Shown in pieces: positions 59,972-63,810 of a DNA stretch of 64,000 nucleotides. The stretch is from positions 434,001 through 498,000 of the forward strand of contig NZ_JARANZ010000001.1 in assembly GCF_029889905.1 (NCBI RefSeq), in the 5' to 3' direction. The first letter of the stretch is position 1. Every line of letters starts with the position of its first letter. The notes below the pieces were generated by a model that worked only from the letters and a program-made list of their open reading frames with translations, made no database searches and was not told the DNA's origin. The DNA comes from Chromohalobacter sp. 11-W (GTDB lineage Bacteria; Pseudomonadota; Gammaproteobacteria; Pseudomonadales; Halomonadaceae). The position numbers and the translations under genes are program-made.

Positions 59972-60751
59972 CTATGGGGGCGTGGTCGTGACGGAGACGG
60001 TGGCACTTCGACGCCATTGCGAGGGAGACTGGCCATGATGGCGCCGAAAGGCGTGCGACAAGGCGCTTTGATTGGCGAATCCCGTGCGTGCCGCGATTTC
60101 GCTGAGTGGTGCGCCGGCGGTTCGCAGCAGGGTGCTCGCGCGCTCGAGGCGGCGGCGCAACAAGTATTGGTACGGTGTCAGCCCCGTATGGCGTCGAAAG
60201 CGCTCGCCGAAATGTGCCTCGCTCAGGCAGGCCAAGCGTGCCAGATCCTTGACCGTCACGCGCTCGGCGAGGTGGATGTCGATGTAGCGATCGATGGTAT
60301 CGAGATCCAGCGCACGTCCGCTGTCGAGCGTCGTCGGCGCGGCGAGGCGAGCATGCAGGCAGCTCAAGAAGGTGGTGGCGAGCAATTCGCCATTGGCGTG
60401 TCGCGGCTGCGACATTTCCTGCACCACGAAGTTGAGATAGTTGCGCAGGGGGTCGTCGAGTGTGAAATAGCGTGGCGCATCGAACAGGCTGGCCAGTTCG
60501 CGATGGCCTCCGGTCAGCGAAGGCGAGTCATCCGGGAGGTCGAGGATCAACTGGCGGTTGTCACCGATACCTTCGTAGTAGTGCACGTGATTGATCGGGA
60601 CGATGCAGCCGGACAGGGGTGCGATGGAACCGCCCAGACCCTCGATCTCGAATTCGGCGTGGCCGGCCAGACCGATGACGATCTGATGAAAGGCATGACC
60701 GTGATGCTTGACGGTGTTGTCGAGCGGCGTAAGACGAATGCTGCTGCTCAT
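59972..60751 (-). CDS. AraC-family regulator, probably of proline catabolism
   Basis: 259 aa from ATG 60751 with an AGGAGGG site. The N-terminal cupin-like sensor (HHGHAFHQIVIGLAGHAEFEI) is followed by a C-terminal double HTH of AraC type (about 160-250: VKDLARLACLSEAHFGERFRRHTGLTPYQYLLRRRLERA, FANQSALSHAFRRHHGQSPSQWR). It is upstream of putA on the same strand, as PruR is in Pseudomonas. The proline role is inferred from position. Confidence 0.9.
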   Translation of the reverse strand: MSSSIRLTPLDNTVKHHGHAFHQIVIGLAGHAEFEIEGLGGSIAPLSGCIVPINHVHYYEGIGDNRQLILDLPDDSPSLTGGHRELASLFDAPRYFTLDDPLRNYLNFVVQEMSQPRHANGELLATTFLSCLHARLAAPTTLDSGRALDLDTIDRYIDIHLAERVTVKDLARLACLSEAHFGERFRRHTGLTPYQYLLRRRLERASTLLRTAGAPLSEIAARTGFANQSALSHAFRRHHGQSPSQWRRSATVSVTTTPP

Positions 60752-60815
60752 GGCGACCCTCCTGAGCTTCGCAGTGAGCTTACCATACACGCCCATGGCG
60801 CGTGAGGCGCAATTC

Positions 60816-61187
60816 TCAGGCCTCTAGTTCAGGCGTTCGCAGTGCCAGGCGTGCACGCAGATGGTCACGTATCGCCTCGAGTTCGTCGCGCCCGGCACGC
60901 GATAGCAGGCAGCCTCCCTGCACGACTTGCCAGGGTCTACCGTGCTCCTCCATCACATGCTGCGCACGGCGGCGGATGCTTTCGAGATAGGCATCGTGGC
61001 GAATCGGATAATCGACCAGCGTATGCCATTCGGCCACGCTGACGCGCTTGTCCAGCGTTTTGTCGAACAGCGTTAGCAGGTGCTCGGGCTCGGTCCGATA
61101 GCGTGGCGTACGGCTGAGCATCAGCATCGCCACGGTACCGACCAGGATCGTCAGGCAGACGGCGAAAACCAGTAAAAAAAGTAGCAT
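60816..61187 (-). CDS. Hypothetical membrane-anchored protein
   Basis: 123 aa. One N-terminal membrane helix (residues 1-25, LLFLLVFAVCLTILVGTVAML) is followed by a charged, helical cytosolic domain (HLLTLFDKTLDKRVSVAEWHTL, YLESIRRRAQHVMEEHG). I recognise no family. The ribosome site is weak, but length, codon use and position upstream of the AraC gene on the same strand support it. Confidence 0.7.
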   Translation of the reverse strand: MLLFLLVFAVCLTILVGTVAMLMLSRTPRYRTEPEHLLTLFDKTLDKRVSVAEWHTLVDYPIRHDAYLESIRRRAQHVMEEHGRPWQVVQGGCLLSRAGRDELEAIRDHLRARLALRTPELEA

Positions 61188-61283
61188 GATGCGGTGAGAG
61201 GCCGAAACGAATGCGAAGCTTCGAGTCTAGCATGCGATCGCGTCATGACGCAGTGACTCTCAAGACGTGATGAAATCGCAAGC

Positions 61284-61541
61284 AAGGAATGGAGCGGGCA
61301 ACGAGGCTCGGCCGGGCTGGCGCACCAGCTCGCGACCCTGAGGTCTACCTGAACTTACGAAGAAGGAGTGGAGCGGGCAACGAGGCTCGGCCGGGCTGGC
61401 GCACCAGCTCGCGACCCTGAGGTCTGCCTGAACTTACGAAGAAGGAATGGAGCGGGCAACGAGGCACGACCGGGTGGCGTTCCACCGGGCTGGCGTACCA
61501 GCTCGCGACCCTGAGGTCTGCCTGAACTTACGAAGAAGGAA
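61284..61541 (-). repeat. Tandem repeats carrying the 3' end of tRNA-Gly
   Basis: Three units begin with TGGAGCGGGCAACGAGGC on the + strand at 61290, 61369 and 61448; the real tRNA starts the same way at 61542. The periods are 79, 79 and 94 bp. Read along the tRNA strand, each unit ends with AGGGTCGCGAG, an insert that replaces the two Ts of the T-loop, and then the 21-nt tRNA tail through CCA. In units 1-2 the insert is an 18-nt hairpin-forming segment (CTGGTGCGCCAG...), and in unit 3 it is longer. The design resembles the tRNA-tail repeats after E. coli tyrT. Confidence 0.85.
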
Positions 61542-61617
61542 TGGAGCGGGCAACGAGGCTCGAACTCGCGACCCTCAGCTTGGGAAGCTGATGCTCTACC
61601 AACTGAGCTATGCCCGC
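61542..61617 (-). tRNA. tRNA-Gly (anticodon CCC)
   Basis: A 76-nt cloverleaf on the minus strand. The acceptor arm GCGGGCA pairs with TGCCCGC, the anticodon loop TTCCCAA gives CCC, the T-loop is AGTTCGAGC, and CCA is encoded at 61544-61542. The tandem repeat array follows immediately after its CCA end. Confidence 0.95.
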
Positions 61618-61796
61618 TCGACGCAGGGGATGTTAATCAAGCGAGACAGGGCTTGGCAAGCTTGACCATGGCAACGCTCGATAAAAAATGCGAAAGGCGA
61701 GGGAACTTTTGCCTGCAATACGGTCTGAGTTAATGCAAGAAACGTGATTCCAGGCAGTCGCTAGGAAATGCGTTTTGAGCTTACTGTTCTCGATTG

Positions 61797-61826
61797 ACCG
61801 CCGTGCCTTTGCACGGCGGTTTTTTT
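61797..61826 (+). terminator. Strong rightward terminator without an obvious gene
   Basis: ACCGCCGTGC/GCACGGCGGT with a CTTT loop and seven T (61820-61826), oriented for + strand transcription. No + strand protein or tRNA precedes it, so a small RNA within 61650-61826 is possible. Confidence 0.8.
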
Positions 61827-61843
61827 ATACGCTGGTGTTGGCC

Positions 61844-62254
61844 TCAGCAGCGGTTGCGCATCACCAGCAGGGCGGCGAGAACCTCGCGACGGGTTACCAG
61901 GCCGATGACGTGCCCGTCATCGACGACGGGATATACCTTGGGGCGTTCGCCGCGCATGGACTCGGCCAGGTCGACAATGCTCTTGTCGGGCGTCACCGTG
62001 AGTACCGCATCGCGCATCAATTCGCCGACCAATGAGGGTTGGCCGCAGTGATAGGCGCTATCGAGCAGTTGGCCCAGGACATCCTGCTCCGAGATGAAGC
62101 CGATCAGGCGGTCTTTCGCATCGACGACTGGCGCACCGGGCAATCGGTGGCGCGCCAGCCCATCGGCGAGTGCCGAGATCGAGGTGTTGGCGGTGACTCG
62201 GTAGCCATCGCCGATCATGATATCGCCGACTACGGCGGGGGATGAACGCGTCAT
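61844..62254 (-). CDS. CBS-domain pair protein
   Basis: 136 aa made of two CBS domains (VGDIMIGDGYRVTANTSISALADGLARH...GFISEQDVLGQLL and LVGELMRDAVLTVTPDKSIVDLAESM...GLVTRREVLAAL). Such stand-alone proteins bind adenine nucleotides and act as sensors. AGGAG precedes the ATG. It lies 86 bp downstream of the Lpd-like flavoprotein gene and may share its transcript. Confidence 0.9.
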   Translation of the reverse strand: MTRSSPAVVGDIMIGDGYRVTANTSISALADGLARHRLPGAPVVDAKDRLIGFISEQDVLGQLLDSAYHCGQPSLVGELMRDAVLTVTPDKSIVDLAESMRGERPKVYPVVDDGHVIGLVTRREVLAALLVMRNRC

Positions 62255-62340
62255 GGCAGGTCTCCTGGGCGTCGACGTACATGACGTCCGCTGACGTCAT
62301 GCCGTTAGCGTGGTACCACGCGGCGCGTGGCATTGAAACG

Positions 62341-63810
62341 TCAGTCCCCCGGTCCGCATTCCATGCAGCGCTCGACGATCGCCGGCCCCAACTGGAGCTT
62401 GGCGTTGAGGTCGCGCAGCGCGGTGCGCAAGCCTTCCTCGACGACCGGGTGATAAAACGGCATCTCCAGCATCTCGCTGACAGTCAGGCGTTGCTGATGT
62501 GCCCAAGCGAGCAGGTGGCCCAAGTGCTCGGCGCGCGGCCCGAATATCTCGGCGCCGAGGAACAACCCGGAACCCTGCTCGGCATATACATGCATCAGCC
62601 CCTTGTTCATGCGCATGACCCGTGAACGTCCCTGGCCCTCGAAGGACACCTCGCCAACGGCGAAGCACTCACAGTCGCCATAGCGCGCTTCTAATTGAGG
62701 ATAGCTCATCCCCACCGTGGCAATCTGCGGGTCACTGAAGACCACACCTAGTGGCGTGCGGCGGTGCCCAGCCCTGATATCAGGGTAGCGACCGGCATTG
62801 TCGCCAGCGATGCGCCCTTCGTCGGAGGCCTCGTGGAGAAGCGGCAACTCATGATTGACGTCGCCAGCGATGAATACATGGCTGGGCGCGTCTTGGTCGT
62901 TACGGCATTGCAGCGTGTGGCGGTTGTACACCGGCACGCCACGGGCATCGAGCGTGAGATGGGCAGCCTCGATGTCGAGGTTGTCGAGGTTGGGGCGTCG
63001 CCCGGTCGCGGCGAGAAGGTAGTCGAAGTGCTCGGTCAGGTGTTCACCGGTCTCGCGTTCGATGAAGGTGATGACCACGCTGTCGCCGTCACGCTCGATA
63101 GACTCGACGGTGGCGTCGGGGTCGACATAAAGCTCGTCGTTGAACGCTTGCTCGGCGTAGTCACGAATCGCGGTGTCCTGGAGTGGCCCCAGCGCGCCTC
63201 CCACGCCGAAGATGCGTAGACGAACGCCGAGCCGGTGGAGCGCCTGTCCCAGTTCGAGACCGATGACTCCAGGGCCGAACAGGGCCACCGACTCGGGCAG
63301 GTTTTCCCACTCGAAGACGTCGTCGTTGATCACCAGGCGGTCGCCGGCGGCCTCGAAGAAACCGGGATAGGTGGGACGCGAGCCGGAGGCGATGACGATT
63401 TTGTCGGCTTCGACGCGGATTTCTTCATCGACGATCAGCGTGTTGGCATCGGCGAAGCGGGCATAACCGCGTAGCTTGTCGCTGTCGGGGATGCCGTCGA
63501 CTGACTCGATCACAAAGCTCACGAAGCGGTCACGTTCGCGGCGAACACGGTCCATCACTGCCCGTCCGTCGACCGTAACTTCGCCGCTGACATTAACGCC
63601 GAAGGGTGCCGTGTCGCGGGCATGGTGTGCGGTCTCGGCGGCCGCGATCAGCAACTTGGATGGCATGCAACCGACGCGTGCACAGGTTGTGCCATAGGGG
63701 CCGCCTTCGAGCATCACGACCGAATCGGTATGTGCCTTGGCGGCACGATAGGCGCCGAGACCTGCGGTTCCGGCGCCGATGATGGCGACATCCACCTTGC
63801 GTACTTCCAT
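62341..63810 (-). CDS. Pyridine nucleotide-disulfide oxidoreductase, dihydrolipoyl dehydrogenase-like
   Basis: 489 aa from ATG 63810 (MEVRKVDVAIIGAGTAGLGAYRAA). It has FAD and NAD motifs and the redox pair in TTCARVGCMPSKLLIAA, plus [20 protein letters not shown]. The C-terminal FYHPVVEEGLRTAL holds the catalytic His. It is distinct from the lpdA of the TCA cluster (GGTCLNVGC) and not linked to a dehydrogenase complex. It may serve as an alternate Lpd or related thiol/quinone reductase; no merA mercury genes are near. AGGACACAGG lies before the start. The 190 bp beyond it to the window end hold nothing recognised. Confidence 0.9.
   Translation of the reverse strand: MEVRKVDVAIIGAGTAGLGAYRAAKAHTDSVVMLEGGPYGTTCARVGCMPSKLLIAAAETAHHARDTAPFGVNVSGEVTVDGRAVMDRVRRERDRFVSFVIESVDGIPDSDKLRGYARFADANTLIVDEEIRVEADKIVIASGSRPTYPGFFEAAGDRLVINDDVFEWENLPESVALFGPGVIGLELGQALHRLGVRLRIFGVGGALGPLQDTAIRDYAEQAFNDELYVDPDATVESIERDGDSVVITFIERETGEHLTEHFDYLLAATGRRPNLDNLDIEAAHLTLDARGVPVYNRHTLQCRNDQDAPSHVFIAGDVNHELPLLHEASDEGRIAGDNAGRYPDIRAGHRRTPLGVVFSDPQIATVGMSYPQLEARYGDCECFAVGEVSFEGQGRSRVMRMNKGLMHVYAEQGSGLFLGAEIFGPRAEHLGHLLAWAHQQRLTVSEMLEMPFYHPVVEEGLRTALRDLNAKLQLGPAIVERCMECGPGD

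Follow-up and report, generated by a model that had tools for sequence, protein, structure and literature searches.

In the window (the whole 64,000-nucleotide stretch of DNA analysed here), the gene for tRNA-Gly(CCC) is followed by a tandem array of units that end with that tRNA's own tail and CCA, and in which the two halves of the T arm flank inserted hairpins. This feature is real, widespread and constrained. Judging from its letters and those of its relatives, we read the array as a tRNA-trailer repeat of the rtT kind, whose units would yield rtT-like by-product RNAs with an exchangeable T-loop module. We hold this reading tentatively, at a probability of roughly 0.45, and favour it over a mobile hairpin without a role and over neutral repeats kept alike by conversion. 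The parts of the array, all on the minus strand, are as follows.

61630 to 61659, minus strand: promoter-like site TTGCCA-18-TAACAT upstream of tRNA-Gly(CCC), from a consensus scan only
61542 to 61617, minus strand: tRNA-Gly(CCC), source gene of the copied tail (ARAGORN; Rfam tRNA, 69.5 bits)
61448 to 61541, minus strand: first unit, adjoining the tRNA, 94 bp, with two T-loop hairpins and one change in its tail (sequence, TRF)
61469 to 61501, minus strand: 33-nt insert of the 94-bp unit, CTGGTACGCCAG CCCGG TGGAACGCCA CCCGGT (sequence)
61369 to 61447, minus strand: middle unit, 79 bp (sequence, TRF)
61390 to 61407, minus strand: 18-nt T-loop insert of the middle unit, containing the 16-nt hairpin module (sequence)
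61290 to 61368, minus strand: last unit, 79 bp (sequence, TRF)
61311 to 61328, minus strand: 18-nt T-loop insert of the last unit (sequence)
61290 to 61310, minus strand: final copy of the 21-nt tRNA tail with its CCA end (sequence)

Moving away from the tRNA, the units thus follow one another in tandem as 94, 79 and 79 bp, each comprising a 29-nt spacer, then AGGGTCGCGAG (the end of the variable loop and the 5' T-stem strand), then the hairpin insert, and finally the 21-nt tail CGAGCCTCGTTGCCCGCTCCA, which runs to CCA and has a single change in the 94-bp unit (CGTGCC). Both 79-bp units have CTGGTGCGCCAGCCCGGC where the T loop of the tRNA has TT, and the 94-bp unit has 33 nt in this place, including a second hairpin, TGGAACGCCA; two-hairpin inserts like this one also occur behind tRNA-Gly(CCC) in three other genomes (G001, G002 and G003). 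Tandem Repeats Finder (TRF) reports a period of 79 with 3.3 copies, 88% matches and a score of 372, and the array is therefore not due to chance. A preliminary description of this DNA had claimed three tandem units of 79, 79 and 94 bp carrying the tRNA tail, AGGGTCGCGAG and a T-loop hairpin, which both the sequence and TRF bear out; its sizes are right, but it numbered the units in plus-strand order, and it is the 94-bp unit that adjoins the tRNA.

The consensus scan found two promoter-like sites in 60900-62000, against 0.1 in shuffles, and letters resembling TTGCCA-18-TAACAT also lie upstream of tRNA-Gly(CCC) in relatives. Shortly past the array stands a palindrome, GCGTCATGACGC (61240-61251, minus strand), which has no T run after it and for which relatives have similar but altered letters. 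A terminator-like hairpin of 11 pairs and a T run separates the CBS-domain gene from the tRNA region (61796-61821, plus strand); one such hairpin was found and 0.9 were expected from shuffles. Four neighbouring proteins were tested against Pfam, namely an AraC-type regulator, a CBS-domain protein, a pyridine-nucleotide disulphide oxidoreductase and a 123-aa protein, the last without a Pfam match, and there is no integrase among the four.

Among the closest known systems is rtT, encoded in the tyrT operon of E. coli (RtT, RF00391, in Rfam; rttR), with which the preliminary description had compared the array. Like the units here, rtT repeats stand downstream of a tRNA in the orientation of that tRNA, and the units of E. 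coli MG1655 end with the tRNA tail and CCA and keep the 5' T-stem strand; hairpins are inserted between the T-arm parts AAGGTTCGA and ATCCTTCCCCCACCACCA, and the T arm is likewise interrupted here. The two differ in that rtT units measure 175-178 bp and have several hairpins after TTCGA, whereas ours mostly measure 67-118 bp and have one or two hairpins before TCGA; in the host tRNA, which is Tyr for rtT and Gly or Asp for these units; and in a helix between the tail and upstream letters, which is part of the Rfam RtT model and marginal in these units. E. coli rttR is an annotated RNA ending at CCA, which, with the plan that both share, speaks for the by-product RNA reading. The comparison is apt and extends beyond what the preliminary description stated, to the 5' T-arm side and the hairpins common to both, but by covariance model the units are not Rfam RtT: the model gave no match up to E 5 in 60500-62400 of the window, and its best match in the source genome (15.4 bits, E 4.9, cut-off 45) lies away from the array, while in MG1655, as a positive control, it found four matches of 132.9-137.5 bits behind tyrT and tyrV. 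According to a study of Actinobacillus, RtT RNAs there adjoin Asn and Lys tRNA genes and give northern signals, and the study describes RtT as released from tRNA transcripts (PMC4986893). Our search of the CC-licensed subset of the literature gave no paper that we recognised as treating the present units. In RNAs of the 3'ETS-leuZ type (tRNA 3' external transcribed spacers), as perhaps in the units here, a piece released from a tRNA precursor could have effects in trans. Unlike these units, such RNAs are spacers and are not known to contain a copy of the tRNA tail.

The units are not private to the source genome. A search of other Halomonadaceae, which the preliminary description had proposed, found 62 genomes with the strict unit pattern among 275 of the family, representing 12 of 24 genera (reversed control, 2 genomes); part of these matches were inspected individually. 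A scan of named genomes yielded 39 stretches from 11 named genera and one MAG: Chromohalobacter, Halomonas, Litchfieldella, Modicisalibacter, Salinicola, Aidingimonas, Oceanobacter, Thalassolituus, Saccharospirillum, Alloalcanivorax and Aliikangiella, some of which lie outside Halomonadaceae. Except for three at a contig end, all units of these stretches stand behind a tRNA and on its strand; the host is mostly tRNA-Gly(GCC), in some cases Gly(CCC), and Asp(GTC) in Saccharospirillum, and an array in Aliikangiella has six pattern matches. Order-wide, the core pattern occurs in 13 of 390 genomes (reversed control, 0), ten of them with a match behind a tRNA; the matches in G011, G362 and G561 have no tRNA in the locus, and one of these is a MITE copy. 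A class-wide search with the core model, run under stricter filters (E 0.001), found one of 321 genomes, the source genome itself.

At the Gly(CCC) locus, ten Chromohalobacter genomes have 3, 1, 1, 2, at least 3 (here the contig ends before the tRNA), 0, 0, 0, 0 and 1 units, the tenth with one more that is decayed. Five of the nine relatives thus have from one to at least three units at this place and four have none, and the spacers vary between species. In relatives without units, the flank 3' of tRNA-Gly(CCC) resembles the flank 3' of the last unit here. An assembly artefact is an unlikely source of the array, since five of nine relatives have units at the same place and several of these have other spacers. 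With four of ten Chromohalobacter genomes lacking units at this locus and 213 of 275 family genomes lacking the strict pattern, the array is dispensable.

In T stem and tail, the units resemble the tRNA in front of them. The source genome has units at three loci, one of them following Gly(CCC) and the other two following Gly(GCC) genes, which lie on contig C12 and on contig C1 near 602,780. The C12 unit has a T stem of the GCGAG type and the tail CTCGTTTCCCGCTCCA, and the C1 unit has the T stem GGGAG and the tail CTCCTTTCCCGCTCCA. At all three loci the tail is that of the unit's own tRNA, and so is the T stem, apart from one base on C12 (GCAAG). The Gly(GCC) genes of this genome (G000) come with two T stems, GGGAG (C1, L202 13671-14115) and GCGAG (C12, L203), and for each type a unit with the matching tail stands behind one gene. 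The Saccharospirillum units carry tRNA-Asp tails. Among 102 units, 71 share their last 12 nt exactly with the local tRNA, and 100 have no more than three changes there; gene conversion instead of selection could account for this identity. Upstream of GGTC, likeness to the tRNA dwindles within about 6-11 nt in 50 representative Gly(GCC)-unit spacers, and one unit (L204, family genome G018) retains the whole anticodon arm.

We then compared rates of change at an orthologous Gly(GCC)-unit-Cys locus in eight Chromohalobacter genomes (28 pairs, mean differences per site, looser anchors, gaps uncounted). The unit shows 0.032 differences per site and the first 17 nt of its insert 0.015, compared with 0.007 for tRNA-Gly, 0.021 for tRNA-Cys, 0.183 and 0.271 for the first and second spacers and 0.104 for the leader. 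A seven-genome version, with exact-letter anchors and G009 left out, gives 0.025 for the unit, 0.021 for tRNA-Cys, 0.186 and 0.160 for the spacers and 0.096 for the leader. Gaps, for instance that due to the second hairpin in G001 and G006, again do not count. The unit, standing between fast spacers, changes almost as slowly as a tRNA gene. Such slow change of hairpin and tail suggests that both are under constraint in the tRNA setting. Gene conversion with the tRNA might explain the T stem and the tail, but not the hairpin: the tRNA has no hairpin and therefore cannot homogenise one.

The hairpin itself is a 16-nt module with two couplings. Our search for single-hairpin units, which placed no condition on stem, loop or the outer letters of the link, gave 126 rows, 121 of them with a fully paired 4-bp stem; since the loci entered the set through their similarity to the hairpin or the unit, their hairpin content is a biased sample. 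The five rows with unpaired stems were dropped, three being shifted registers of L140 units already counted and two (L038 and L189) lying more than 700 nt from the tRNA and looking like chance. The 121 stems read CTGG/CCAG (97), CCGG/CCGG (19), CCGA/TCGG (3) and two others. The first coupling joins loop base 3 to the fourth link base (C/G in 109, T/A in 12) and is obeyed by all 121; the second joins the first and last bases of the YCCRR link (C/G in 83, T/A in 36, C/A in 2) and is obeyed by 119. The T/A state of the first coupling occurs in Chromohalobacter (L229-L231), Halomonas (L140), another family genus (G159, L233), Oceanobacter (L163) and Saccharospirillum (L176). The 26 hairpin types were also compared by Fisher tests, which take no account of relatedness. 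An alignment (A1) was made of 46 of the 54 distinct cores together with two window units (47 distinct rows), the cores left out having mostly shifted tails or indels. For couplings and stem alike, none of 500 shuffles and no slid register reaches the observed values for paired cells, for cells with changes on both sides or for the covariation score. Coarser measures are reached often: pairs changed on both sides by 216 of 500 shuffles for the couplings and 49 for the stem, and further pair types by 500 and 369, respectively. Changes in the stem are compensated within the hairpin. Both couplings drawn as one small pseudoknot gave, by our reading, no feasible fit.

Within tRNA units, the module sits before TCGAATCTC, T54 being read as C, and second hairpins are added at the same point. 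A different, second type of hairpin, CTG-ACGG-CAG-CCCCGT, occurs in L072, L113, L115, L128, L129 and L161, with the variants ATGG/CCAT and GCGG/CCGT; its loop is complementary to the next four bases, a pairing that is not easy while the stem stands.

The same module occurs away from tRNAs. Each Chromohalobacter genome gives 7-18 matches to a dispersed repeat that is palindromic and whose ends are inverted, and in 20 aligned copies (within L244-L263) the hairpin fills site A (CGAC^TCAAAATGCTCA and like) in 9 and site B (GTAAAC^TCCGC) in 8, both sites being empty in 11. Two pairs of copies, L247/L262 and L251/L254, have like flanks and differ by the presence of the 16-nt hairpin. In a second, different repeat from the Halomonas group (L264-L293, three genomes), the hairpin is present or absent at GGTGC^TCRRAATCCTCA, with 8 sites filled and 4 plainly empty among the 14 rows listed. 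In G207, 40 of 118 candidates for such MITE-like repeats were scored and all 40 matched. Of 51 matches with MITE-type flanks, four with unpaired stems were set aside, and the 47 paired-stem modules, a few of which may be tRNA units with the tail CTCA, all follow both couplings; inserts with another stem, CTCG/CGAG, follow them as well. The recurrence of one module at C^TC in tRNA units and in MITE-like repeats makes the hairpin an exchangeable module with one kind of target in unrelated settings. Like REP elements and MITEs, it is short, palindromic and present or absent at a fixed target; unlike them, the hairpin in the array is bound to a tRNA tail. REPs are longer than 16 nt. A bolder formulation, which we regard as doubtful, would be that a 16-nt hairpin with a fixed internal grammar inserts at C^TC in two structured settings of very different origin, the T loops of tRNAs and the palindromes of MITEs, and that from the former arose a widespread family of predicted by-product RNAs that end in CCA and track the local tRNA across marine and halophilic Gammaproteobacteria.

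In thermodynamic folding, the whole 401-nt region gave z -2.81, and per-unit prediction, which the preliminary description had proposed, favoured the 94-bp core (z -2.07) but not the two identical 79-bp cores, which at z -0.14 fold no better than shuffles. Over 93 distinct cores, the apical hairpin is predicted above 0.5 in 57, the T stem in 24 and GGG/CCC in 21, and from 68 units RNAalifold recovered nothing beyond the apical hairpin and a GGTCG helix. Long-range pairing of the tail with upstream letters, striking in single examples, was weak over 50 representatives of 99 units and therefore dropped: it is marginal at mean z -0.47 (Wilcoxon p 0.004; 5 of 50 with p<0.05), with -0.26 (p 0.36) for a reversed-tail control. 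Thermodynamic folds and tail-upstream pairing lend weak support to the by-product RNA reading. The marginal pairing, the folds of the 79-bp cores, the T stem predicted in few cores, the lack of an Rfam RtT match and the dispensability of the array count against it.

On that reading, each unit would go back to a local tandem duplication that copied the 3' portion of the upstream tRNA (from the variable region and T stem as far as CCA, in some cases more), would be kept similar to that tRNA, and would have had its T loop opened by the structured 16-nt module. The units would be transcribed together with the tRNA and cut in the spacers, after which the enzymes of tRNA maturation would trim them to their CCA ends, releasing short by-product RNAs. 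These RNAs may occupy or buffer the processing or turnover of tRNA 3' ends, and the opened T loop may stop them from passing as tRNAs. An RNase decoy or a 3'-CCA trap, which the preliminary description had suggested, would be candidate roles.

The observations that make the module exchangeable also feed a different explanation. Here the hairpin would be a tiny element of 16 nt, mobile or exchangeable, that goes in at C^TC and often has RRAATNCTC after it, and the array would be a by-product of insertion and local duplication without a cellular role. The element would enter duplicated tRNA tails, in their T loops, as well as the palindromes of MITEs because both offer a C^TC target. We consider this rather unlikely. 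Its exact presence or absence at C^TC in both groups of repeats, the coupling rules shared by every paired-stem MITE-flank module and the stacking of second hairpins at one point in tRNA units speak for it, but gain at the C^TC sites is not distinguished from loss, hairpin and tail change slowly in the tRNA setting, and the source genome has no match to the Y1 (REP/RAYT-type) transposase family PF01797, for which 5 of 14 control genomes were positive.

Neutral tandem duplication of the tRNA end, with gene conversion keeping the copies similar to the tRNA and the hairpin dating from one old event, would fit the variation of copy number and spacers between close relatives, the tails that track the local tRNA and the anticodon arm retained in G018. 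The hairpin speaks against it, since conversion with the tRNA cannot conserve a hairpin, and this one recurs across families with compensated changes and hardly varies at the orthologous locus while the spacers diverge; we hold this reading to be improbable. Elements that integrate in tRNA genes duplicate tRNA 3' ends, and the array could in principle consist of remnant attachment sites. We deem this highly improbable: the units adjoin the tRNA, repeat the 5' T-stem strand too and have no integrase among the neighbours tested, the exact core pattern has no match in viral contigs, one unit has none in phages, and among plasmids there is one weak match, in a 1.8-Mb Halomonas replicon. The preliminary description had called the array more ordered than an integration scar, a judgement with which its occurrence in many genera and behind three tRNA species, its slow evolution, its covariation and the lack of viral or phage matches agree.

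If the by-product RNA reading is true, rtT-like repeats would not be confined to enterobacteria and Pasteurellaceae, and would represent a recurrent way to build on a tRNA end. A 16-nt module that is exchangeable and whose positions covary is unusual even on its own. The units offer short tandem test objects in culturable species and, with their match to the local tRNA and their near-tRNA rate of change, would make the old question of whether trailer repeats have any function directly testable.
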